A DNA stretch of 21,995 nt from a virus. Both the position numbers and the translations under genes were made by a program. The stretch lies in IMG/VR virus record IMGVR_UViG_3300044614_001577, positions 1 to 21,995 of that record, one strand, 5' to 3'. Shown here in pieces: positions 1 through 18,526 of the stretch (its first letter is position 1; each line of letters opens with the position of its first letter). Under the pieces are notes generated by a model that saw nothing but the letters and a program-made list of their open reading frames with translations, made no database searches and was not told the DNA's origin.

Positions 1-2729
1 TGCATGGGTTGATTAATCGTTGGCGTTCTGTCCAACTGCCTCTTTGCCGCAATCAAGTCCGCCAAGCGTGACTCAGCACGACTGCTAGTGCCAAGCGCAA
101 GCTGCGACAACCGTTGGGCGTTTGTTGGAGCCGTTGCCGACATCATCTGCCGGGCCTCCCTGACCACAGACACATTCTCGAGAATCTGCTGCTCGGTCAC
201 GCCGGTAATCTGACCGGTCGTCCGCATATTGTTCGCCCATTGAGTGACCTTGCCTAGGTCTTCATTTATGTCGTTGAGAAACGAACGGCTATTGGCCATT
301 TTCTCAGCGAGGTTTGTATAGTAATCCTTTCGGGTCTGTTGGTACACCACGTCGGCAAGCGTGAGCGGGTTGCTCGACATACCGCCGGCTCCGAGCGCTT
401 CACCAAGTATCTCAATAGAATTTAACTCTTGGCCTGACACAAACTGAGCCGCCGCTTCACCAAAAGCCTCCGATACCGGTTCAATAGCCAAAGCCTGACC
501 GGCGGCCTGAGTCGTCCTGCGAGCCGTTGACGCAAGCGAAGACGGTGCTATTTTGCGTAGCATCCCGGCCGTAATGGCGTCAACAGCAGCGATGGTCAAT
601 CCGCGCTTTACGCCGATGTTTCTGGCCTCTTCCCATACCTCAGGGTCGTTAAGCCATTCGCCCTCTTGGGCTTTCTCGAGCGTGTTGTATTTTTCGCGGA
701 TGGCATCAAGAACAGACGCCGTGTACTCTAGCGAAAAACCGCTAGCGGCATTGGTGATTTTCATACCAACAGACAAAGCGGCCCTAGCACCCGCGGGACC
801 ACCAAAAACTCCGCCGATAGCCGTTGACACGGGGATAATGACCGAGCCAGTCTTCCATAAAATCGGGAACATCCGAGCCATAGAGTTTAAGGACATATTT
901 GCTACGCCCGAAATAAACGTCACAGGGTCTGCCCCAAGAGCGCGCAAATAATCACCGAACTCTCCTGACTCTGCCGCTTCAGCGATTCGCTCCTGACCGG
1001 CCGACATTGCTGTTGATATAGCCGGGTCGTTCATCATCTTAAAAAGCTGCTCGTTGTATATCGCAAGTTTTTCTTCGTCACTTGCAACCTTTGCGGCTTG
1101 TGCGTCTAAAACCACGTTTGACATCTTTCCCTCATTCCATCCGGTGCGAATGGAGTTCCATAATCCTTGCCACTCACTCGCATATTTATCTTGGGCCTCC
1201 TTGTCGTATTTGGCATCAAAATAAGTGCGTTCTTTGAGATATACCTGAGCCGCTTGCTTTTGCCGTTGAGCTAAAAGATTGTAGGCGTCAATGGATTCGT
1301 TAAACACCCTCGCCGAAGCCGCATCAGATGGCTTGACATTCTTGATTTCCGGATTGATGGTTCCATCCGGATTCAGAAACGGAACGCCAAAATAGTCGTT
1401 AAATTTCTGATTGAGATTTCCTTGAATGGTTTTTACTTCACGATTCAGAGCAATCGCTTGTTGTTCAGCTTTCTTGCGTTCTGCCTCAAGTTGCCGGTCG
1501 GCCTCCTGACGAATGCTAGACAATGACTGAAAATAATCCTCTATGGAATCTTTCTGTTTGCGCTTTTCGTCAAGGACTTTCTCTAAACCATCAACGGTCC
1601 CTACGCCGTAAGCCTTCTTCATCTTAGCGGCTAGTCGAGCCTTTTGGGGCTCAAGCCCCGGGCGATTGGAAGACAAAATATCAATAGCATCTTCTAGGCT
1701 ATTAATTTCTTCACGACTATACTTTCGCTCGAGCTCGTTCTGCTTCATTACCCCGTACTCAATGCCGTTCTGCTCCGCTACTTGTTTGCGCATCAAGTCG
1801 CCTTGGTTAATGTTCTTCCAAGAACCTTTCGCAAAAGACTCCGCCTGCCCCTTGGTGTCAAACTGATACAACTCGCCCCTCCGAACTGCTTCCTTAAAAG
1901 CCTCGTCCGGACTCTTGTACTCAACCCAATCATTCGGGTCGGACGATTGAGAATTTGGTGTCTTTTGGTATAAGGTTGGAACGGCGTAATGTTTGCCGTC
2001 AACCTCCATAGTCGTAAACAAATGCGTCGACCTAGTTCCGTCAGGATTAATCCGGGCGGCCGGCCTTGTTTCCTGAGCCTTTAATGATAGGTCAACAAAT
2101 TCCTCGTTTTGGTACTGCGTTTTTTTGGCGTTTTTTGCAATAAAGCCTTTCAGCTTATCGGCCGCCTGCGCTCCATCGCCGTACAAATCAACCTCAATGT
2201 TTCCGCCACTGCTTCGGGCGACATAGTTGCCCATGGGTGTCAAATCAAAAGAAAACCCGTACTTCCCGTAATTCTTCTTCAACTCATCCAAGACGCGCTC
2301 CTTCTTCCGAAGACGAGCCGTAGCATCATATCCAAACGCATTGGTTTCGCCCGGCACGTCCTTGGTCATATCCAAGATTGACCCGCTAATCATAGCGAGC
2401 TCAGACAATGGCACTGACGCCATTTCCTCGGCCGGTTGTGCATCCGATTCCTCGCGATACTTTGCCGCCGCACCGGTTAGCTCTTCAGTGAACTGCTCTC
2501 TAAACGCTTCGGTTTTTGATTTGATTTGTTCAGAGAACTCAGGCGTGAGAAGTTCCTCGGTTTTGAGCTCTAGCTCTTCACTCGGAATGGCAGCGGCCTC
2601 CGATGCCAAGTACGGAGTCTTGGCTTGCTGCTGCGCTCTGTATATGGCATTGAGGTCAACCTTAACAGCGCCCTTCACGGGCTCTGCTTGTTTCAATGCC
2701 CGTAAAAGGTCATTCTGCTGTTTAGCCAT
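1..2729 (-). CDS. Very large internal virion protein, T7 gp16-like position (partial)
   Basis: The frame is open from the ATG at 2729 to the left edge, 909 complete codons, so the C-terminus is missing. Segments by residue: charged helical N-terminus; about 225-300 a compact domain with RSTHLFTTMEVDGKHYAVPT, LYQKTPNS, KSPDEAFKEAVRRGE and FDTKGQAESFAKGSW, which I recall as a recurring module of phage virion proteins; about 395-450 coiled coil (RQEADRQLEAERKKAEQQAI); about 615-665 a hydrophobic, Gly/Ala-rich region (MFPILWKTGSVIIPVSTAIG, GVFGGPAGARAA) that could enter a membrane; and from about 705 RGLTIAAVDAITAGML followed by EPVSEAFGEAAAQ. Order after gp14-like and gp15-like genes, size and the membrane-like region suit an inner-membrane-spanning ejection protein. 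No lytic transglycosylase motif is visible in this part. Confidence 0.75.
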   Translation of the reverse strand, partial: MAKQQNDLLRALKQAEPVKGAVKVDLNAIYRAQQQAKTPYLASEAAAIPSEELELKTEELLTPEFSEQIKSKTEAFREQFTEELTGAAAKYREESDAQPAEEMASVPLSELAMISGSILDMTKDVPGETNAFGYDATARLRKKERVLDELKKNYGKYGFSFDLTPMGNYVARSSGGNIEVDLYGDGAQAADKLKGFIAKNAKKTQYQNEEFVDLSLKAQETRPAARINPDGTRSTHLFTTMEVDGKHYAVPTLYQKTPNSQSSDPNDWVEYKSPDEAFKEAVRRGELYQFDTKGQAESFAKGSWKNINQGDLMRKQVAEQNGIEYGVMKQNELERKYSREEINSLEDAIDILSSNRPGLEPQKARLAAKMKKAYGVGTVDGLEKVLDEKRKQKDSIEDYFQSLSSIRQEADRQLEAERKKAEQQAIALNREVKTIQGNLNQKFNDYFGVPFLNPDGTINPEIKNVKPSDAASARVFNESIDAYNLLAQRQKQAAQVYLKERTYFDAKYDKEAQDKYASEWQGLWNSIRTGWNEGKMSNVVLDAQAAKVASDEEKLAIYNEQLFKMMNDPAISTAMSAGQERIAEAAESGEFGDYLRALGADPVTFISGVANMSLNSMARMFPILWKTGSVIIPVSTAIGGVFGGPAGARAALSVGMKITNAASGFSLEYTASVLDAIREKYNTLEKAQEGEWLNDPEVWEEARNIGVKRGLTIAAVDAITAGMLRKIAPSSLASTARRTTQAAGQALAIEPVSEAFGEAAAQFVSGQELNSIEILGEALGAGGMSSNPLTLADVVYQQTRKDYYTNLAEKMANSRSFLNDINEDLGKVTQWANNMRTTGQITGVTEQQILENVSVVREARQMMSATAPTNAQRLSQLALGTSSRAESRLADLIAAKRQLDRTPTINQPM

Positions 2730-4378: not shown

Positions 4379-5175
4379 CGGCTAAATGATAGGGGGTTGG
4401 TCGAAAAAATGCTTTGAAGCTGAGGATTCTGTTGAGAGAAAGCCGTTGGATTCATTCCGATATAAGGGATTTGCCCTGGATAGGAAGGCATAGATACTGA
4501 TGGGAGAAACTGAGAGAAATTCATAGGGTCATAAGTGCCATCGCTTACGTTAGCTGCCGGCTGCTTAGACTGAACCAAATTGCCCTCCGGCATAAAATCA
4601 CCCTTGGCTTGCCCTCCGGGATACAGCGGCGCCGCTTGCATCCCAAGCTTTGCTAAATCGCCAAGACCCGCCACTCCCTGCGCAATAGACCTCGCCCGTG
4701 CTGCCTCTTGTTCTCTGACCGCGAGCTGAGCGCCTTCGGCCTCTCCAAGTGAAAGACCGGCCAATGCGCCGGCAAGCCTTGCGTCTTCGGCTTTCTTCAT
4801 CTGCTCAAGCTGGAACATGTCTTGGGCTACCTGTGCGTTCAGCTGACGCTCGGCCTCTGTGCGAGCCGCCATAACGCGCCCTGCGGCTGCACCAACGCCC
4901 CGCTGTTCGCCCTGAGTTGCCTCGGCTAATATGTCTGCCGCCTGCTGCCCTACGGCCTCGCGTTGAGCCTCGTATGCGGTCGTTGGGAGGGATAGTGCCT
5001 CTAGGTAATTGACGCCAAGTTGAGCCTTGGCTTCGCTGACTGCGCGCTGCGCTGACTCTCTAGCTTTTTCAGCGGCCTTGCGCTGCTTGCCGGCCTGAGC
5101 GAAAGACATAGCCGTTCCGGCGCCCGATACCGCTGCGCTTGATAAAGCAATAATTGCTGCTGTTTCTAGTCCCAT
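4375..5175 (-). CDS. Internal virion / ejection protein, T7 gp14-like
   Basis: A 266-residue protein. The N-terminus (MGLETAAIIALSSAAVSGAG, TAMSFAQAGKQ) is a small-residue hydrophobic helix that could insert in a membrane. Residues about 28-175 are Ala/Glu/Gln-rich helices (KAAEKARESAQRAVSEAKAQ; LEQMKKAEDARLAGALAGLS), and the C-terminal 90 or so residues are Pro/Ser/Gln/Asn-rich and probably flexible. Small Ala-rich helical proteins of this kind with an N-terminal hydrophobic helix are typical of the T7 gp14 group, which forms the outer-membrane part of the ejection channel. Position before two larger internal proteins agrees. Its stop overlaps the next ATG (ATGA). Homology to gp14 was not tested; the call rests on composition and order. 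Confidence 0.65.
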   Translation of the reverse strand: MGLETAAIIALSSAAVSGAGTAMSFAQAGKQRKAAEKARESAQRAVSEAKAQLGVNYLEALSLPTTAYEAQREAVGQQAADILAEATQGEQRGVGAAAGRVMAARTEAERQLNAQVAQDMFQLEQMKKAEDARLAGALAGLSLGEAEGAQLAVREQEAARARSIAQGVAGLGDLAKLGMQAAPLYPGGQAKGDFMPEGNLVQSKQPAANVSDGTYDPMNFSQFLPSVSMPSYPGQIPYIGMNPTAFSQQNPQLQSIFSTNPLSFSR

Positions 5176-5567
5176 AATTTTACAAGTTCATGTGCGTTGG
5201 TTGATGATGTAATAAATCCGGCATCTTTAAAATTCCGGATTGCATGTGCGTTATTTGTGACGGTAAAGACCGCGTTATATCCTGCTCTTTTAGCGCTTTG
5301 ACACGCCTCTTCAAGCATGTCCTTGAGAATTAACCTGCGATTTGGTTTTTTGCGATATTCCCGATTTGACAGAACCCATGTTATCCAAGCTATTTTTGAA
5401 TTAGTCATGTAAACCATGCAAGAGCATACGGGAACGTCTTCGTCAAAAGCAATAAAGCCAGTATCAGGAAGCATTTCTTTTGGAGGCGCAGATTCAAAAC
5501 CCCATTCCCCCCACCACTTGGTGAGGATATTCTCGTAATCTCCGTCTTGAATTTGCCTAATTTTCAT
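5166..5567 (-). CDS. GNAT-fold protein with degenerate cofactor loop, likely T7 gp13-like
   Basis: A 133-residue protein with GNAT layout: N-terminal MKIRQIQDGDYENIL, strands GFIAFDEDVPVCSCMVYM and KIAWITWVLSN, a helix after REYRKKPNRRLILKDMLEEA (69-88), the strand YNAVFTVTNN (97-106), and a final 'NAHAIRNFKDAGFI' segment that fits the GNAT C-terminal helix and strand. The acetyl-CoA pyrophosphate loop (normally R/Q-x-x-G-x-G/A) reads R72-K-K-P-N-R77, lacking both glycines, so catalysis is doubtful. T7 gp13 is 138 residues, is known to me as GNAT-like, and lies just before gp14; this gene lies just before a gp14-like gene (10-base overlap). A structural or assembly role in the internal core is therefore more likely than acetylation. 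Modification of a host target remains possible. Confidence 0.75.
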   Translation of the reverse strand: MKIRQIQDGDYENILTKWWGEWGFESAPPKEMLPDTGFIAFDEDVPVCSCMVYMTNSKIAWITWVLSNREYRKKPNRRLILKDMLEEACQSAKRAGYNAVFTVTNNAHAIRNFKDAGFITSSTNAHELVKLWD

Positions 5568-7343: not shown

Positions 7344-10300
7344 AGTTTTAATTACAACGCCAGAAGAGTTCAGTTCAAACCACCTAAAGGCGGAGTCATA
7401 ATAGCTATACACGCCCGGATATGCCGTAAATGTGCAACTATTATCGTAATAAAATTGCTTTCCGATTGCGATACCACCTCCTTCATAATAAAGCGACATA
7501 ACTATTCTTGCGCCACAGGCATCTACTGAGCTTGTGAAAACGCCGGTTGTTTGAACCTCTACGCATGTCGGACATGAAACATTACAATTACAACAAGCAG
7601 AAGCCGGAATTGTTGAATGATAACACATATCAATCGATACGGAGCGCCTATAATCCCAAATTAAATAAAGGTATGGGAACACTGTTCCAATGCTTATTGC
7701 GGTATTGTAAGCCTCATACGGCTCATAATCAACAACAGGGCCAGTTAATGCACTTGATGTTGCTGCTGAAATTAAGTTGTTAAGACCAACAGGTGTGTCA
7801 AAGGCGTAAAGAATATTTGAGCGAAGAACCCTAAACCTATCAAGGGATGTGTTAATTAAAAAGTCGCCACTTTCAATGCCATACATCGTTATTGGGTCGG
7901 AATTGATTGGTAAAAAAGCCGAACCGGGACGAATCGGAGGAAAAGTTGATAAATGAGAAATAATTGGATACGAAGTCCCAGATTGAGCTACAAATGCCTC
8001 AACATTCATCTGATTTGGATAAGTTCCAAAAGCAATAGACCCATTTAATCCAGCGTCATTAGCGTTTGTAAGTACGATTGCGTAAACGGTTACGAATGGA
8101 GCGCTTACGGGGCATGTTGTTGATAGCAAAAACCCAACTTCTCCACCGGCCGGAGTCACAATAATGTCCGCATAATCAAGATTTGGTAAATTTTTGTTAA
8201 ATGTTACCGTTCCTCCAGTTGAAATCACGATGTTCCCGACATTCGCTGAATCATAAAATACACCAATGGTTCCATTGCCAACAATAGGCCCGCTAATAAT
8301 TACGCTCGCATTGCCGACGTTTGATGGATAATAAACCCTTATTGTAGTGGGGACAGTAATATTTCCATAATATTTTTTGCCGGAGCACTCAATATAAGTT
8401 ATAGGAGGGGCAGGTTCGTCGCCGACATGCAAAACGTAATCTTTTACAAATGGGTCGTATGCGCCTCTCACCGGAGCATTTTTGATTGGAGAAAACGAAT
8501 CTCGGAAATAAGAGCGCATTCCAATATCGGAAATGACTAGTAGCTGTTCGCCTGATAGCTTTAATACGGCGCCTTTTTTTATGTCGGTAAAGTATATGTC
8601 ATTGCCAAAAGACGCAAAACTTTCCGGCTGCTTACAAATACCAAACTCTTCTATCCTTGCAATCTGATTGCCTAATACCTCCGGGACACTTGCAACAGCT
8701 CCGCCTCCAGTTGAGTCAGCAAGAATGTTTTTGCCAACAAGAACTCTAGAAACTCTATCTTCTTGGAAGACCAATAGGTCCGTTTGCCTTGGGTGCATTC
8801 GTTGAATGCTTGCGTAAAGAGCCTCTAGGTTTTTAAAGTTAAGCAATCCAAGGTTAAACTCGTTAAGTTTATTCACATTGGATTCTCGATTGTAAACGCC
8901 GCTGTATGTTATGTCCGAAAAACGATGCACCTCGCTAAAGTCTGTTTCAGCAACAGACGTGACACGCTGACCAAGCAGAAACGAATCACCAACTATTGAG
9001 TCTTTTATCCTAAAACTCTCAACACCATTACCAAAGGCATAACAGTTGTAAAAATCAAGAATACTAACGCCAGATATTGACCCTATAATATCTTGGTTAA
9101 CACTATTGCACAAATGATTTCCAGAGCCATCAATGCCAAAAGATTCGTGATTTTCGTAGTACAAATCCGGAAGCGCATCCGTTGGTTCAGTTTCAAAAAC
9201 AAGGGCTCCTCCGGCTTTTTGAATTACTATTCTTGCTTCAATACGCGATGTCTTTACGTTAGGCCATGAGCAAGCAGGGCTTCCATGCCTAATTGTCAAA
9301 TAAAGAGGATTGGTTGTCGCTGACCCTGTTGCATCCGAAGCAAATTGGTATCTGTTTGTGCCCTGTAAAAATCCCGGAACAGCACCCGCTCCAATAAGAA
9401 CGGTGCTATTATACACATCACTATTTTGGCCGGCATCATCAGGACATCCATAATCCGGATGAATTGCCGCCGCAACATTTACGCCTTCTCCTAACCAAAA
9501 AAGTCTAAAATCAGAATAGTTCTGAGAAGCAACTATTTTTAAAGACAATAGAGAGTCAACTCTTCCACAAGCATTGCTATTTCCGCCGCAGTTTCTTCCA
9601 AATCGGAAGACCCAAATGCTAATGGTTACAACCGACCCGGCAGGTATATTCCAACGAGAAATAACTCCATTAACGGTATTAAAGCATGGTATTCGTAAAA
9701 CAGCATAAGCATTTGTATTGCTCCCTCCTGTATCGGTTGATTCGGCCGTTAATGTTCCTGTATCAATGTAATTATTTGGGTTGAAATTTGCCGACCAACC
9801 ATCATTTCTCAAACGCATATAAACGCCGGGCAACTCTTGGATGGGCTGCCCGGTTGTTGTTTGGTTTCCTAAAATCCAGTTCTCAAGCTTAGCCTCTTTA
9901 TCAAGAACGACGGTGGTGACATAATTCTGCAATGCGCCTTGCGTATCGGATTTTACAATAAGCGTATCACCGGCTTTTACTTTGTTTTGAGACTCGCCGT
10001 CAAGCTTTACCCATATACCATTATCCAATGGGTCATTGTAAAAGATATTTGCGTAAATGGTATCGTAGCGCTCTTTCGTTGGCTTTATCACGAACTTATA
10101 CCTCTTCGCCCACGATGGAGCCTTTTGAGATATAGGTATTGTGACCTTAATCCTATTCCTTGTATTTGAATTTCCGGCCGGGAAAAATACCGTATTATTC
10201 TGACTCGTAAGAGCGGTAGTTGACCGATTGTATTCGTCCATATAGACAATGCCGACTTGGTAATCACGATTGCTATGTAGGCTTTTTGGAACGCCAGCTT

Positions 10301-11993: not shown

Positions 11994-12913
11994 TTAATCC
12001 ATTTATCGCGGCCCCTCATATTCATCAAGAGGCGACCCGGGTGAATGTTGCTAAGTCTAATTTTTGCATTCATCAAAAGAGCCCTTCGGTCTTTTTTGGC
12101 CCGGTTCACGATATATTCCTGAACACCAAAACGATTGTTCAAGATGGCGTATTTGATTGCAGCGTATATGTAATCTTCAAAAAGCTTGTTGATTTTAACG
12201 GAGCCATCATTGCCATTCTCCATGCCATCGGACACATACTCGATGACGCAAAGAAGTCCGCTCATGTTCGAACTAAAATTAATGACCCCACTCTGCTTGT
12301 CAATCTTGAAGACGGGGTTTCCATTGGCCGTCTCTGTATTCAGTCCATAGTTGCCGCCAATGCCCCACCGGAAATACCAAACGTCATCAATGCACCATCC
12401 GTAGTTGCCGTTGTATGGGCTTGATGGATTGACATACAGACTTGGCGCCGTATTGTTTATTCTGCCTAGGTCCAAGTCCGAATACTGCGGAGATAGCACG
12501 TTGCCATTTTGGTCGTAAAGCAACGCTCCGCTTTGGTCTTGTAGATAAGCCGTTGCGAAGTTGGTCTGAAAGTTTTCGCTGAGCGGGAATAGTACACCAT
12601 TAACCTCTGCGGAAATCCGGACCCAATTCACATAATCAGATGGAAGAAAAATTTTCAAGTCGCTGCCAACCGGTAGCTCCAATACTTTAATCTCCTTGAG
12701 GGCATCGTAATTCAGCTCCTGTATTGCGCGCTTTGCAAAAAACAATACCTGATACCGGTTGATGTTATTGATAAGCTCATGGTTGCCCTGATACATCAAC
12801 ATGAAGTTGTTGACGATGTCCTCTAGCGACACATACTGATAGCTGCCCCAATTAGCGTCTTGAGGGGAATTGCCCCCATTGTCGTAATACTGATACTGAG
12901 TTATGTATGCCAT
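11990..12913 (-). CDS. Second head-tail ring / neck protein (crAss-like)
   Basis: A 307-residue protein. Its N-terminus (YQYYDNGGNSPQDANWGSYQ, then VSLEDIVNNFMLMY and QVLFFAKRAIQELNYDALKE) and the adjoining segment EIKVLELPVGSDLKIFLPSD with YVNWVRIS are very like a conserved neck protein I know from crAss-like and other Bacteroidota phages. The C-terminus has a helical stretch (FEDYIYAAIKYAILNNRFGV) and ends in a basic tail (NMRGRDKWIK), also typical. The middle, with WCIDDVWYFRWGIGGNYG, is beta-rich. It would sit between portal and nozzle with the preceding ring protein. The stop overlaps the nozzle start in an ATGA junction, so the two are coupled in translation. Confidence 0.85.
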   Translation of the reverse strand: MAYITQYQYYDNGGNSPQDANWGSYQYVSLEDIVNNFMLMYQGNHELINNINRYQVLFFAKRAIQELNYDALKEIKVLELPVGSDLKIFLPSDYVNWVRISAEVNGVLFPLSENFQTNFATAYLQDQSGALLYDQNGNVLSPQYSDLDLGRINNTAPSLYVNPSSPYNGNYGWCIDDVWYFRWGIGGNYGLNTETANGNPVFKIDKQSGVINFSSNMSGLLCVIEYVSDGMENGNDGSVKINKLFEDYIYAAIKYAILNNRFGVQEYIVNRAKKDRRALLMNAKIRLSNIHPGRLLMNMRGRDKWIK

Positions 12914-13632
12914 TATGAACGCTCTTTTTGTAGGGTTTCCGTTTCGGTTGCCTGACCAAACTGATAGACATCGCCTTCGCGAATAGAGATTCCGGCATAC
13001 TGAAGAATCCTTGCAATAAGCGCCGGCATGTCTGATTGCGGAAGCTCAAAGTCCATATAATCGGCGGCGCCTTGGTTAAAGATAGGGTCTCCATTGGCGC
13101 CAAACGAAAGCCATGTCCACTTGGGGACTCTAGGGTATCGAATGTACTGAGCAGAAACATTTTGAGTTATACTGCTCGGATACACGGTGATTCTTTGAGA
13201 CAAACTCGAACCGGTTCCCGTCCCAGTCATTAAATAGGCCGGAAATGAAGTCGATGGCGCCGTAAGGTTTGAGGCTAAAAGCTGATTGATTTTATTCAGA
13301 GAAACCCGGTCAATAGGCTTCGTGAAATATAGGACATTCATCATGATGTAACAATCCGATGGCACTGAAAATGTTGCTCCGTTATGCGTCAACACAGACG
13401 TTGTGCTAAAGGTGTCAATGACCTCTTCGGTTATCTGTCTTAGGTCGGCGTATCCCGTTCCGGATTGCCGGGCATTCTCCTTGCGGATTTGGTCGTTATA
13501 CAACTGAAAATAACCCTCAAACACATCAAGCTGCGCTTGCTGAGCGTATAAGTTAAAGTCCGACGGAGTTATGTATCCGTAGTTGTTCTTGTTTGCAACG
13601 GCGAGTACCGCATTTCTAACGTCGTCAATCAT
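12913..13632 (-). CDS. Head-tail adaptor / ring protein (T7 gp11-like position)
   Basis: A 239-residue protein expected to form a ring between portal and nozzle. The N-terminus has a helical segment with YGYITPSDFNLYAQQAQLDV and FEGYFQLYNDQIRKEN, a pattern I recall from ring/adaptor proteins of Bacteroidota podoviruses. The middle is a beta-rich region (FSVPSDCYIMMNVLYF, RITVYPSSI, VSAQYIRYPRVPKW), and the C-terminus is helical (MPALIARILQYAGISI, then REGDVYQFG). Such helix plus beta-domain architecture suits T7 gp11 or P22 gp4-type adaptors. Its stop overlaps the next gene's start by one base (TAATG). The exact place in the neck cannot be told from sequence. Confidence 0.75.
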   Translation of the reverse strand: MIDDVRNAVLAVANKNNYGYITPSDFNLYAQQAQLDVFEGYFQLYNDQIRKENARQSGTGYADLRQITEEVIDTFSTTSVLTHNGATFSVPSDCYIMMNVLYFTKPIDRVSLNKINQLLASNLTAPSTSFPAYLMTGTGTGSSLSQRITVYPSSITQNVSAQYIRYPRVPKWTWLSFGANGDPIFNQGAADYMDFELPQSDMPALIARILQYAGISIREGDVYQFGQATETETLQKERS

Positions 13633-13650: not shown

Positions 13651-13941
13651 TTATACAAACAACACGGAACTAATGGTTACGGCGTCATTGTTGGGTACTT
13701 TTGGCAATGGCCCCAAGACATAATAAGAAACATCCGATTGACCGGCTAAAGTTACTTGCCCTAAAAACCATCGTTGTAGGTTATAGCTGGAGTCTGTAAC
13801 TGAAAAAGTAACCGTGGCCGTATTTGTGCCGCCATAGTAAAAAACAACGGTGCTTGTCGTGGCTAAAACTGATTTTGCATCCTTGATGTTCAGCAGGGAC
13901 GGAACGCCCGCCAAAGTGTTGATTTGCATAAATTCAGCCAT
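13651..13941 (-). CDS. Small structural paralogue 5 (candidate decoration or neck protein)
   Basis: A 96-residue protein starting MAEFMQINTLAG, followed by LLNIKDAKSVLAT, strands TVVFYYGG and ATVTFSVTD, the helix YNLQRWFLGQVTLAG, the loop GPLPKVPNN and the C-terminal strand TISSVLFV, so it follows the plan of the other four. The longer reading frame to an ATG at 14004 is rejected: its extra 21 codons are exactly the terminator hairpin, and the chosen start gives the MAxF N-terminus shared by the family. It stands alone between a terminator and a promoter, so it may be expressed at a different level from its paralogues. Function unknown. Confidence 0.7.
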   Translation of the reverse strand: MAEFMQINTLAGVPSLLNIKDAKSVLATTSTVVFYYGGTNTATVTFSVTDSSYNLQRWFLGQVTLAGQSDVSYYVLGPLPKVPNNDAVTISSVLFV

Positions 13942-13944
13942 ACA

Positions 13945-13952
13945 CAAAGGTA
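13945..13952 (-). promoter_or_regulatory. -7 promoter element directly after the array terminator
   Basis: The minus strand reads TACCTTTG (TAnnTTTG), only three bases before the ATG at 13941 and directly after the terminator T tract. If used, the transcript would begin at or just after the start codon region, so it would be leaderless or serve the next start; it may chiefly restart transcription for the tail genes. Confidence 0.5.
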
Positions 13953-13992
13953 ATAAAAAAGCCACCCTCCTGAGTTTCAGGGGGTGGCTTTT
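13953..13992 (-). terminator. Intrinsic terminator inside the small-paralogue array
   Basis: Plus-strand bases 13957-13992 form a long hairpin: AAAAGCCACCC pairs with GGGTGGCTTTT, and above a single bulged T the arms CCTGA and TCAGG close a GTT loop. On the minus strand the stem runs into a T tract (TTTTTTATTA). It follows the stop of the gene ending at 14010 after about 17 bases and lies before the ATG at 13941. A promoter element starts right after it. Confidence 0.9.
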
Positions 13993-14009
13993 GAAATAGC
14001 TCAAATCAA

Positions 14010-14661: not shown

Positions 14662-15918
14662 TTAAGCTTGAACGGTTGTGTTAGAGTCAATAAATCGGCC
14701 ATCAGGCAGCGTTCCGCCAACCTCAAAAAATCCAGTTGGAGCCAGTTCTTGAGAGTTAGCCGCTATAATGGCATTCATGATAATCTCATGGGTAGCTCCG
14801 CTATAATCAGAGCCAAAAGTAAATGTCAATGTATCAGCGCCCGGGTTTCCGGAGTCAAGGTCAACGACTACGGTATTCTGAGCCCCCGGCCTCATGTACA
14901 AAAAGTTTTCAACATTGTAGTAGTTGGGGCTTTGAGTTTCAAACGTATTCACATACGACATATCATATCCAGCCCAAGTCGCTAATGCAGAACTCTTTGC
15001 CACCCTGTTTGTGTTTCCGCCTGAAGACGAAACAACAACAAAAGAGTTTGCTGCGGTAGACGCTGCTGCTGACCACATCTGTGATGTAGCGTCTGTGTTT
15101 GGGGTTGTTTGAACAGTAAAAGCTGTTCCGTTTGCACTCGTAGTAATCCTAGTTGCCCCGGGTCCAACTTGTGATAAGATAACCATTCCGGCCGTTCCGT
15201 CGCTTGCTGCTGCCACATAAGTGCCCGTTGCTAGGGTGGTCTGAACGGTCCAAGTGACTCCATCTTGAGTTCCAGTAGCAGCTCCAGCAGCTCCACCCGT
15301 TGAGGTTATTGCAACGACCGTTGTTCCAAGTCTTACCAACTCAATCCAAGCGCCAGCAAGACCGCCGGCTTGAGTGTTCCAACTAGTTATATTCTCGGCA
15401 TTTCCAGTGATAAATGCAGTTCCAGCAGCTCCGTCGTTTCTGCAAGCAATCCAAGTGGTTCCACTCCAAACAACGCTTTGATAAGCGGCATTAAGTACCG
15501 GATAAGCACCAACAGCTGTCCAAGTATTGCCGTCTGTACTTTGATGAGCAGTTCCGCTTGTGCCTACGGCAAGGAATCTTGTCCCACTCCAAGCAACGCA
15601 AGTTAAAGCATCTGTAACAGGAGTTGCTGCTAAGGCCCACGTTAGTCCGGAATCTGTACTTCGCATAATATGGTTTATGTTTCCTCCAACAGCTACGGCA
15701 ACAAAGGTGGTGCCTCCGTTGTGAGCAATGTGCGACCAGTTTTTACTTAATGCACTGGCTAGTTCAATAAATGACCAAGTGACACCTCCGTCCGTGCTTC
15801 TAGCGGCCCTAAATCTTCCGGTATTTGCCAAAGCAACAACTGTATTCCCGTTTGCCGCTACGGCAGTCCATAAACTATTAGTTGCTGGTCCTACGGGTAA
15901 TTTTAAAAATTTTGCCAT
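14662..15918 (-). CDS. Small paralogue 2 with inserted seven-repeat Asp-box beta-propeller
   Basis: A 418-residue protein. Residues 1-8 (MAKFLKLP) match the N-terminus of the small paralogues, and about 328-418 match the rest of their fold (YYNVENFLYM, then VVVDLDSG, TLTFTFGS, helix HEIIMNAIIAA). Between them lie seven regular units of roughly 40-48 residues carrying Asp-box-like motifs: STDGGVTW (41-48), STDSGLTW (87-94), STDGNTW (127-133), a degenerate ENITSW (175-180), TQDGVTW (217-223), SANGTAF (261-267) and SSALATW (309-315). The repeat number suits a seven-bladed sialidase/BNR-type propeller. No sialidase catalytic arginine triad or other active site is evident, so glycan or protein binding is more likely than hydrolysis. 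The best reading is a virion surface protein displaying a propeller, anchored through the small-paralogue domain. Confidence 0.82.
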   Translation of the reverse strand: MAKFLKLPVGPATNSLWTAVAANGNTVVALANTGRFRAARSTDGGVTWSFIELASALSKNWSHIAHNGGTTFVAVAVGGNINHIMRSTDSGLTWALAATPVTDALTCVAWSGTRFLAVGTSGTAHQSTDGNTWTAVGAYPVLNAAYQSVVWSGTTWIACRNDGAAGTAFITGNAENITSWNTQAGGLAGAWIELVRLGTTVVAITSTGGAAGAATGTQDGVTWTVQTTLATGTYVAAASDGTAGMVILSQVGPGATRITTSANGTAFTVQTTPNTDATSQMWSAAASTAANSFVVVSSSGGNTNRVAKSSALATWAGYDMSYVNTFETQSPNYYNVENFLYMRPGAQNTVVVDLDSGNPGADTLTFTFGSDYSGATHEIIMNAIIAANSQELAPTGFFEVGGTLPDGRFIDSNTTVQA

Positions 15919-16284: not shown

Positions 16285-17001
16285 TTATTCAGAGATATAT
16301 TTTTCAAGCGTAGCCATCACTTCAGCTCCTTCTTCGGTCACGAAATAAGAGCTAACCGCCTCATGGGCATCTTGACCGGCCGGAATGATAAGCAATTTTG
16401 ACTTATTATTGGTCAAATTGTAATGAACAGCATTTCTTTTTACAACAAGAGTCCCATAGTCAAATAGGCGGGCGACCAAGCCATCATGAGCGACATTTGG
16501 GTCGTTGACGATTGACAAAAACTCTTCTGGATTGTTTTTTGCATAAATGATAATGTCTCGCTTTAACTCCTGCGTACTAATCCGAGAGGGGTCAATACTG
16601 AGAGCAATTCGAGCAACATTCTCCATCATGGCATAGTCGATTGTTCTAGCCTTGGACAAAGCGTCAGCTTCAAGCTCTAGCCAATCAAGTTCTTTTTGTG
16701 CATCTTTCTTGCTATCAACCTCGACAAATGAAGTCCCATTGTCTGGATGTAATTCGAGAAATTTTTGAAGAACGGGGTTTGAGTCTTCAACTCTTAAAAA
16801 GCCATCTTCAAAAATGATAGGTTCAAGGATAAAATTGCCATCTTGTTCATCAACAAAAGGGCTTTTTTGATTTCGAGCGTAGCGTAGCTCGCGATTGACC
16901 TTGCCGTCAAAATGGTAAAGTCTTTTTGCGATTGTGTTTCTGCTTGCAAGCATAAAGCTCATAGGCGCAGCGCCTCCGGTTAGTTTATAGATTTTAGGCA
17001 T
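16285..17001 (-). CDS. Conserved-looking head-region protein, function unknown
   Basis: A 238-residue soluble protein directly after the capsid gene and its terminator. It starts MPKIYKLTGGAAPMSFMLAS. Visible segments include NRELRYARNQKSPFVDEQDG (about 36-55), FEDGFLRVEDSNPVLQKFLE (about 64-83) followed by LHPDNG and FVEVD, then a helical middle and an alpha/beta C-terminus ending TLEKYISE. I have an impression of similar segments in structural-module proteins of other Bacteroidota phages but cannot name a function. No signal peptide or membrane segment is present. No TAnnTTTG element was seen in the short leader, so expression probably depends on read-through of the terminator or on an unrecognised promoter. 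It may be a minor head or assembly protein; this is inference from position only. Confidence 0.75.
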   Translation of the reverse strand: MPKIYKLTGGAAPMSFMLASRNTIAKRLYHFDGKVNRELRYARNQKSPFVDEQDGNFILEPIIFEDGFLRVEDSNPVLQKFLELHPDNGTSFVEVDSKKDAQKELDWLELEADALSKARTIDYAMMENVARIALSIDPSRISTQELKRDIIIYAKNNPEEFLSIVNDPNVAHDGLVARLFDYGTLVVKRNAVHYNLTNNKSKLLIIPAGQDAHEAVSSYFVTEEGAEVMATLEKYISE

Positions 17002-17021: not shown

Positions 17022-17061
17022 AAAAAAAATAAAGGAGGGGGTGTTCAAACACCCCCTCCTT
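17022..17061 (-). terminator. Intrinsic terminator after the major capsid gene
   Basis: A perfect 13-bp stem (arms 17032-17044 and 17049-17061, read AAGGAGGGGGTGT on the plus strand) closes a four-base TCAA loop. On the minus strand it is followed by TTTATTTTTTTT-like sequence (positions 17031 down to 17022: one T, one A, eight T). It begins 11 bases beyond the capsid-protein stop and lies before the ATG at 17001. This is a textbook Rho-independent terminator for minus-strand transcription. Confidence 0.93.
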
Positions 17062-17071
17062 CGGTAATCGT

Positions 17072-18526
17072 TTAGGCTCGGAACAAGAAGAAGTTGTTGG
17101 AACCAAGTGTGCAAACACAACGCTCAGATAGGTAGTGGACCTCCATTGCGTCAAGGTCGCTTGTTGCAGCGCCTCCGGCAGAACCGGTCGCCCAAGTTTT
17201 GAACTTCCTGTCTTCTGACTCGGTTTGGCGATAACGAACGTGCAAGAATGGGCGCTTGGCGTTTTGGCCCATTACTTGGTCGTAAACATTGGTAGAGCCC
17301 GCAGGCACAAGCATTCCATTGATTGCGCCACCAACAGTACCGGTTGCAGTACCCTGACCGCGCATAGTGGGGTCATTCAGGTATTTCCAGTCGGTCTTGT
17401 AGAAATCGTAACCGCGACGGAAGCCACGGAAGCCGAGGTTCAAAGCCATCTGCTCGCTGTTGTTGAACAAACCGTAAGATGTTCCACCAACACCGTAAGA
17501 GTTCTGAGCGGCCAAGAAGTCGTCCATGGCGAAAGAGGCAGCACGGTTTACGAACAGGGCATTCTCCTCAATAGCACCCTGCTTGTCAAGACGCTGAACA
17601 ATCGCGTCAAAGTCAACAAGGCTAGTAGGATAACCACCACTGAATACGTTTCCGTTTGCAGCGACTTCAAAGAAGACGCCCTTTGTGCCTTTCAGCGCAG
17701 GAGAAACAGCAATAGCACCAGAAGCCGTTTCAGCAGGAACCGCCTCAAGCATAGATGACTCTAGATAATCTTCAAAGCGAAGACGGGTTTCGTGTTCGGC
17801 CTTCATGTACCACAAATATCCAGAAGCCCCGTTTTCGGCAGTGACTTCGACCCAGCCAATTTGGGTCATGTCAGAACCGGTCACGGTGAATTTGTCCTTC
17901 AAAATGATAGGGTTGTTGTCTTTGAAAATGTCAAAAGACTGAACCGACTGAGTCATTCCGGCAGAACCTTTTGCAAATTCAGAGCCATATACCCATAAGG
18001 TAAAAGTGTTGGAGGCACCGGCAACGCCGATACCAGCCCCTTCGTAAAAGGCAACGGTAACAGTTCCATCAGCAACAGCGGTTACAACTGCGTGATTAAC
18101 GACTGAGCCATTTTCTTGCTGAACAAGAAGGGTTTGGCCAATACGAATACCGTTTACGTTGTTTGTTCCTGTTCCACCCAAAAGAGGGTTGTTTGCAGGG
18201 GTTTGATACTGAGTTGCCGGAGTGATGGTGAAAACCGCGGTGTCAGCGTTAAGAATCGCTGGAGTGGTACAGCCGGTATATTTAACGTGAAGACGGCCTT
18301 GCTCTGCCCATTTGATAAGGTCGGAAGCACAAGGCATTTCAGCACCTACCATACGCAAGAAACCCGAGATACTACGATTACCATAGCGCTCAAATTCTGA
18401 CTCATAAATATCTGGCAAATACTGATTTAAAAAGTTGAAGTTAGAACTATCAATATAGTTCGTGGCGGTTGTTTGCCTATTAATACTAGGCTGCAACGCA
18501 AAAGTTGGAGAAGCTAAAACTGGCAT
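17072..18526 (-). CDS. Major capsid protein (crAss-like, HK97 fold expected)
   Basis: The 484-residue product builds the icosahedral shell. It starts MPVLASPTFALQPSINR and has the N-terminal segment NQYLPDIYESEFERYGNRS followed by the motif FLRMVGAEMPCASD. The C-terminus HYLSERCVCTLGSNNFFLF (about 464-482) is the kind of ending I recall in crAss-like phage capsid proteins. Residues around 75-185 form a Gly/Thr/Val-rich segment, probably an insertion domain exposed on the capsid surface. A strong intrinsic terminator lies directly after the stop codon, as expected for the most highly expressed structural gene. No Shine-Dalgarno sequence is present; the leader just before the ATG is A-rich (CTTCTTAAAA), typical of Bacteroidota. 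Position after portal and scaffold supports the call. Confidence 0.9.
   Translation of the reverse strand: MPVLASPTFALQPSINRQTTATNYIDSSNFNFLNQYLPDIYESEFERYGNRSISGFLRMVGAEMPCASDLIKWAEQGRLHVKYTGCTTPAILNADTAVFTITPATQYQTPANNPLLGGTGTNNVNGIRIGQTLLVQQENGSVVNHAVVTAVADGTVTVAFYEGAGIGVAGASNTFTLWVYGSEFAKGSAGMTQSVQSFDIFKDNNPIILKDKFTVTGSDMTQIGWVEVTAENGASGYLWYMKAEHETRLRFEDYLESSMLEAVPAETASGAIAVSPALKGTKGVFFEVAANGNVFSGGYPTSLVDFDAIVQRLDKQGAIEENALFVNRAASFAMDDFLAAQNSYGVGGTSYGLFNNSEQMALNLGFRGFRRGYDFYKTDWKYLNDPTMRGQGTATGTVGGAINGMLVPAGSTNVYDQVMGQNAKRPFLHVRYRQTESEDRKFKTWATGSAGGAATSDLDAMEVHYLSERCVCTLGSNNFFLFRA

Follow-up and report, generated by a model that had tools for sequence, protein, structure and literature searches.

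Optional capsid accessory proteins that combine a docking part with a display domain thought to bind carbohydrates have been described in several phages, as head fibres or Ig-like decoration proteins such as Hoc of T4, gp21 and gp29 of phicrAss001, and gp8.5 of phi29 (PMC7602432, PMC10172136). The crassvirus phicrAss001 also carries gp36, an auxiliary capsid protein that covers the whole shell and consists of a PH-like domain with a FliD-like domain inserted at residues 75-237 (PMC10172136). In phage phi11, the receptor-binding protein Gp45, a trimer of the tail baseplate, has a five-bladed propeller platform that has been proposed to hold a cell-surface sugar (PMC4901313). Here, we describe a 418-aa protein for which the head fibres and Hoc-type proteins are the most likely working model. 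Unlike in those proteins, where display domains of other folds are joined end to end, the putative display module sits in a loop of the dock. It has a propeller in common with Gp45 and might likewise hold a sugar, but has seven blades. Asp-box motifs and the propeller fold are also shared with GH74, sortilin, Ycf48 and many phage BNR proteins, none of which was seen nested in this docking family. A limited literature search found no paper on a nested slot of this kind in a phage structural protein.

The window, that is, the whole stretch of DNA analysed, is a virus record of 21,995 bases and probably a fragment. In gene order, a portal gene is followed by those for a scaffold-like protein, the major capsid protein and a 238-aa protein, then by a cassette of five small-domain genes including that of the 418-aa protein, and then by the genes for the ring protein, a 307-aa protein and the muzzle (Table 1).

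Table 1 Features of the capsid-to-ring interval of the window.
Feature	Position	Strand	Basis or remark
Major capsid protein	17072..18526	-	PHROG 13704, virion structural protein
Intrinsic terminator T1, junction of capsid gene and 238-aa gene	17031..17062	-	
Conserved 238-aa protein, function unassigned, precedes the cassette	16285..17001	-	PHROG 34748
Insert-free family member, 111 aa	15923..16258	-	
Gene for the 418-aa insert-bearing protein	14662..15918	-	ATG at 15918, stop 14664-14662
N-terminal docking-domain strand MAKFLKLP	15895..15918	-	Family start motif; pairwise alignments
Propeller insert, residues ~9-326	14941..15894	-	AlphaFold2 blades, structural matches, Asp-box profile relatives
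C-terminal part of docking domain, residues ~327-418	14665..14940	-	hhalign against the insert-free family; HMM match 1.5e-24, with this protein itself in the HMM seed
Insert-free family member, 106 aa	14336..14656	-	Modelled, mean pLDDT 85
Insert-free family member, 103 aa	14010..14321	-	
Intrinsic terminator T2, separating the cassette from the tail-side genes	13955..13988	-	
Insert-free family member, 96 aa	13651..13941	-	From the likelier ATG; after the second terminator
Tail ring / adaptor protein	12913..13632	-	Similar to phicrAss001 ring protein gp34

The window probably stems from an uncultured phage with a short tail and a relationship to the crAss-like phages. Crassvirales are marked by a portal and a capsid of crAss type, several ring genes and a muzzle. 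The ring gene resembles gp34 of phicrAss001 (E 0.0066), and the muzzle matches the crassvirus muzzle family of Pfam (E 4e-12). The capsid protein shares 22-62% identity with its counterparts in a Manatee Spring podovirus, Maribacter phage Panino, Elemovirus and Cellulophaga phages including phi38:1; a search of its profile against the PDB found no relative. Among named cultured phages, the closest are Maribacter phage Panino, Elemovirus and phi38:1 (Pervagoviridae). Since the genome-collection matches are mostly contigs from Bacteroidota bins and the hosts of the cultured relatives are Flavobacteriia, a bacterium of the Bacteroidota is the probable host. The 238-aa protein was considered as a relative of gp36, and the search gave no match. 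A C-terminal domain common to the muzzle and the 320-aa protein was likewise considered, but the match fell short of significance (E 0.15). Elsewhere in the window, a large open-ended gene (3-2729, minus strand, 909+ aa) leaves the window edge and likely encodes an internal or ejected protein, and a 133-aa protein among the structural genes (5166-5567, minus strand) looks GNAT acetyltransferase-like by sequence inspection.

The 418-aa open reading frame is real and lies on the minus strand; a plus-strand reading of 14662-15918 is ruled out by 17 stops. Residues 1-8 form beta1 of the small domain, residues ~10-326 a seven-bladed Asp-box propeller, and residues ~327-418 the remainder of the small domain. 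The sequence-only reading had listed seven propeller units with Asp-box-like motifs, and all seven motifs are present at the proposed positions. Two of them, at residues 41 and 87, fit the strict pattern S-x-D-x-G-x-T-W (2 observed against 0.016 expected in shuffles), and the other five are degenerate (STDGNTW, TQDGVTW, TSANGTAF and two more). An AlphaFold2 model built from an alignment of nine propeller proteins only resolved residues 16-322 into seven blades of four strands each, and confidence was good over about residues 20-270. The best PDB matches were 7-bladed propellers over residues 11-317, led by virginiamycin B lyase (Z 28.5, 2.6 A over 271 residues); WD40 proteins and designs, and GH74, were further close folds by VIA-align. 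As modelled, the insert is thus a seven-bladed Asp-box beta-propeller with a closed ring. The propeller in itself is ordinary, because BFVD contains many phage propellers with similar models.

These matches bear on the alternative that the propeller, carried by the particle, degrades glycans as an enzyme and does not serve for binding alone. The profile search that had been proposed for this region did recover Asp-box proteins, with a GH74 enzyme the closest (E 3e-5) and sortilin and Ycf48 as further matches, and the folds nearest to the model include those of GH74 and virginiamycin B lyase. However, the GH74 match is limited to residues 23-148, and sortilin and Ycf48 match in a similar way, so that it probably reflects the Asp-box repeat. 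GH74 xyloglucanases consist of a pair of seven-bladed propellers whose intervening cleft holds the catalytic aspartates, and the single propeller in the model speaks against that identity. Sialidases of GH33 are six-bladed propellers with an arginine triad and a Tyr-Glu pair; judged by blade count, this identity is unlikely as well. No enzyme family exceeded the Pfam cut-off for the 418-aa protein, and Pfam and PHROG searches of this protein and its small neighbours gave sub-threshold matches only. We therefore regard an enzymatic role as quite improbable.

The small neighbours, four of which are found in the window as had been noted before, belong to a previously unnamed family of proteins of ~95-115 residues; the shortest one is encoded within a 117-aa open reading frame (13651-14004) that holds a likelier ATG at 13941, giving 96 aa. 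In the model of the 106-aa neighbour, beta1 (residues 4-7) is followed by beta2 (20-22), three further strands, a helix (64-78) and two strands, and in the 418-aa protein the propeller enters after beta1, in the beta1-beta2 loop. The earlier claim that the first 8 and last ~90 residues match the small neighbours was borne out: the propeller proteins aligned with the insert-free family profile over residues 332-416 (hhalign, 97.3%, E 2e-11), and the family has an N-terminal motif of its own: 59 of 91 members show it at their annotated start, compared with 2 of 521 other genes in these operons. In many of the remaining members, the motif sits after a mis-called start. Since most residues in the C-terminal part of the AlphaFold2 model have pLDDT under 50, the homology of this part rests on the sequence profiles. 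The 418-aa protein thus has the start motif, the ~85-residue core and the gene position between the 238-aa and ring genes that characterise the family.

Comparison among relatives points in the same direction. Insert-free paralogues adjoin insert-bearing ones, loci L010 and L090 encode small, propeller-less members that share 36-39% identity with the propeller protein in its C-terminal part, and L009, with a capsid protein 91% identical to that of the window, has no propeller gene. These alignments support the view that a complete propeller is nested within the beta1-beta2 loop of a domain shared with the small neighbours. The sequence-only reading had called this a virion-protein domain; profiles, start motif and blades uphold the nesting, and the term virion protein, a putative assignment, draws on gene position and operon structure.

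Sequence searches of the small family against solved structures, and a Foldseek search of the small-domain fold against the PDB, gave nothing significant. A second aligner returned FERM, PH and PTB chains as the best PDB matches of the small-domain model, all weak (Z up to 5.0). This PH-like resemblance may be just a common arrangement and is no test of kinship. It does recall gp36, a capsid-bound PH-like domain with a nested domain in a crassvirus, given the weakly PH/FERM-F3-like model here. No sequence match between gp36 and the small family was found, and the two differ in the insert (FliD-like at 75-237 in gp36, a propeller after residue 8 here) and in occurrence, as gp36 coats the entire shell whereas the present family forms an optional cassette of 0-5 copies. 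Translated searches found no member in the cultured phages of the collection; the family is widespread, yet unrecognised by Pfam, PHROGs and the cultured-phage collection searched.

The propeller is one of several modules found at this site. In L073, L146 and L172, adjacent paralogues agree at the start (e.g. MQKFLSIPV and MEKFLNIPV) and again from NQLVS/NSQLVS onward, and between these ends lies a domain of roughly 70-85 residues. Single copies of such a ~75-aa domain are found in L074, L111, L116, L126, L136, L147, L153 and L167; L067 and L070 apparently have a tandem pair, and L010 bears a different insert of ~95 aa. Judged from these alignments, related phages bear at least two other, unrelated insert types in the same loop, which accommodates domains of about 75 to 320 residues. 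On the docking-domain tree, the three insert types require 5 state changes; branch support is modest (83 columns), so the estimate of at least three independent insertions is suggested mainly by the three insert types being unrelated in sequence. We consider it rather probable that the beta1-beta2 loop of this small virion domain is a general socket into which unrelated modules have been inserted at least three times, giving optional and exchangeable display proteins, 0-5 per genome, in uncultured phages of probable Bacteroidota hosts.

In the first locus set, the family kept to one position: each of its 113 matches (113 of 113) falls into the interval bounded by the 238-aa gene and the ring gene. 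This set, which preceded the scan of L097-L176, includes L001 (the window copy) and near-duplicates such as L002 and L090/L091, and where the ring gene is off the contig the count applies the 238-aa-side bound only. Three examined loci on genome-bin contigs carry members, likewise in this interval. Of the 77 cassettes that are complete, 38 lack the family altogether, 19 hold a single member and the remaining ones hold two to five. Other contents occur there too: a NUMOD4/HNH homing endonuclease gene takes the cassette position in L193 (10297-10944), and Maribacter phage Panino (L094) has in its place a 1.3-kb stretch (about 8200-9490) with five short hypothetical genes and no family match.

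The interval is framed by intrinsic terminators. A T1-type terminator occurs at the capsid/238-aa junction in 73 of 90 loci and another directly before the ring gene in 62 of 77, against none at four other junctions (0 of 71, 89, 70 and 57) and a background of 0.005 per 170 nt of coding DNA; in the window, T1 and T2 each fold at about -26 kcal/mol (z below -5). Where a single terminator was detected in a cassette, 63 family genes lie upstream of it and 9 downstream, and these nine are of the 96-aa type adjoining the ring gene. Some relatives have an extra terminator between the 238-aa gene and the cassette. This arrangement suggests that the cassette would be transcribed together with the head-side block, and T1 and T2 probably set head-to-tail expression ratios.

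Between close relatives, the cassette changes more than its surroundings. Compared with L004 and L006, its proteins are 46-89% identical in amino acids, flanking proteins mostly 98-100% (scaffold 93% in the L006 comparison), and nucleotide identity changes in sharp steps. Mixes of opposite kind also occur, with L008 combining 87% capsid identity with 34% for the propeller protein and L003 68% with 81%. A diverged cassette between near-identical flanks, together with these opposite mixes, indicates that the cassette has been swapped by recombination or has changed much faster in place. Purifying selection is seen in all regions (dN/dS 0.11-0.29). In 4 of 6 pairs compared, conservation is lower in the propeller than in the dock, and in most pairs the dock is under the stronger constraint. 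The dN/dS analysis of the propeller gave no sign of positive selection, nor of diversifying selection on a binding face, a point that counts against a virion accessory protein with a binding module.

The optional cassette, its faster change relative to the flanks and the homing endonuclease gene at the same place in L193 would fit a non-virion, non-structural, moron-type cassette that merely sits between head and tail genes. We hold this to be very improbable, as the genes are co-directional, stand within the structural operon between the 238-aa and ring genes in every genome that has the cassette, and encode a docking domain under purifying selection. The ring protein raises a different alternative, namely that the nested proteins belong to a tail collar or ring-bound adhesin complex, docking on ring proteins and holding the propeller near the tail. 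It too has diverged from L004 and L006 (80% aa), varying along with the cassette between close relatives, which would also fit a tail-collar location; against L004, nucleotide identity within its gene dips to 59% at 13121-13420 between stretches of 94-97%, which suggests a variable patch. The 96-aa member, after the second terminator and next to the ring gene, agrees with such a location. Most members, in contrast, precede the second terminator, in a block with the 238-aa gene after the capsid gene, and phages lacking any member retain the same ring gene. We therefore rate a collar location as unlikely.

We favour, with a probability of about 0.6, the reading of the 418-aa protein as an optional accessory component of the virion that docks on the particle, most likely the head, and presents its propeller outward as a binding module. 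On this reading, the protein would be present in the virion, located at the head and exposed on its surface. The docking domain (~95 residues: beta1, four more strands, a helix and two strands) would bind the particle, most likely the head, and the insert-free paralogues would bind it likewise. The N and C ends of a closed propeller lie close together. Placed in the beta1-beta2 loop, the propeller would project outward, with a host-surface or environmental polysaccharide as its most likely ligand, and could give reversible attachment before the tail engages; related phages of the group have put other domains into the same loop. By analogy with known display proteins, the earlier proposal of a module shown at the particle surface that tethers virions to glycans, mucus or exopolymers may apply here.

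Taken as a family, the small domain looks like a reusable socket that would put binding modules on the virus particle. The locus offers a natural case of display modules that are nested and can be swapped within structural operons of phages, where the paralogues lacking an insert serve as internal controls, and gives a name to a widespread protein family absent from Pfam, PHROGs and the cultured-phage collection searched. It also makes head-mediated attachment by uncultured Bacteroidota phages directly testable.
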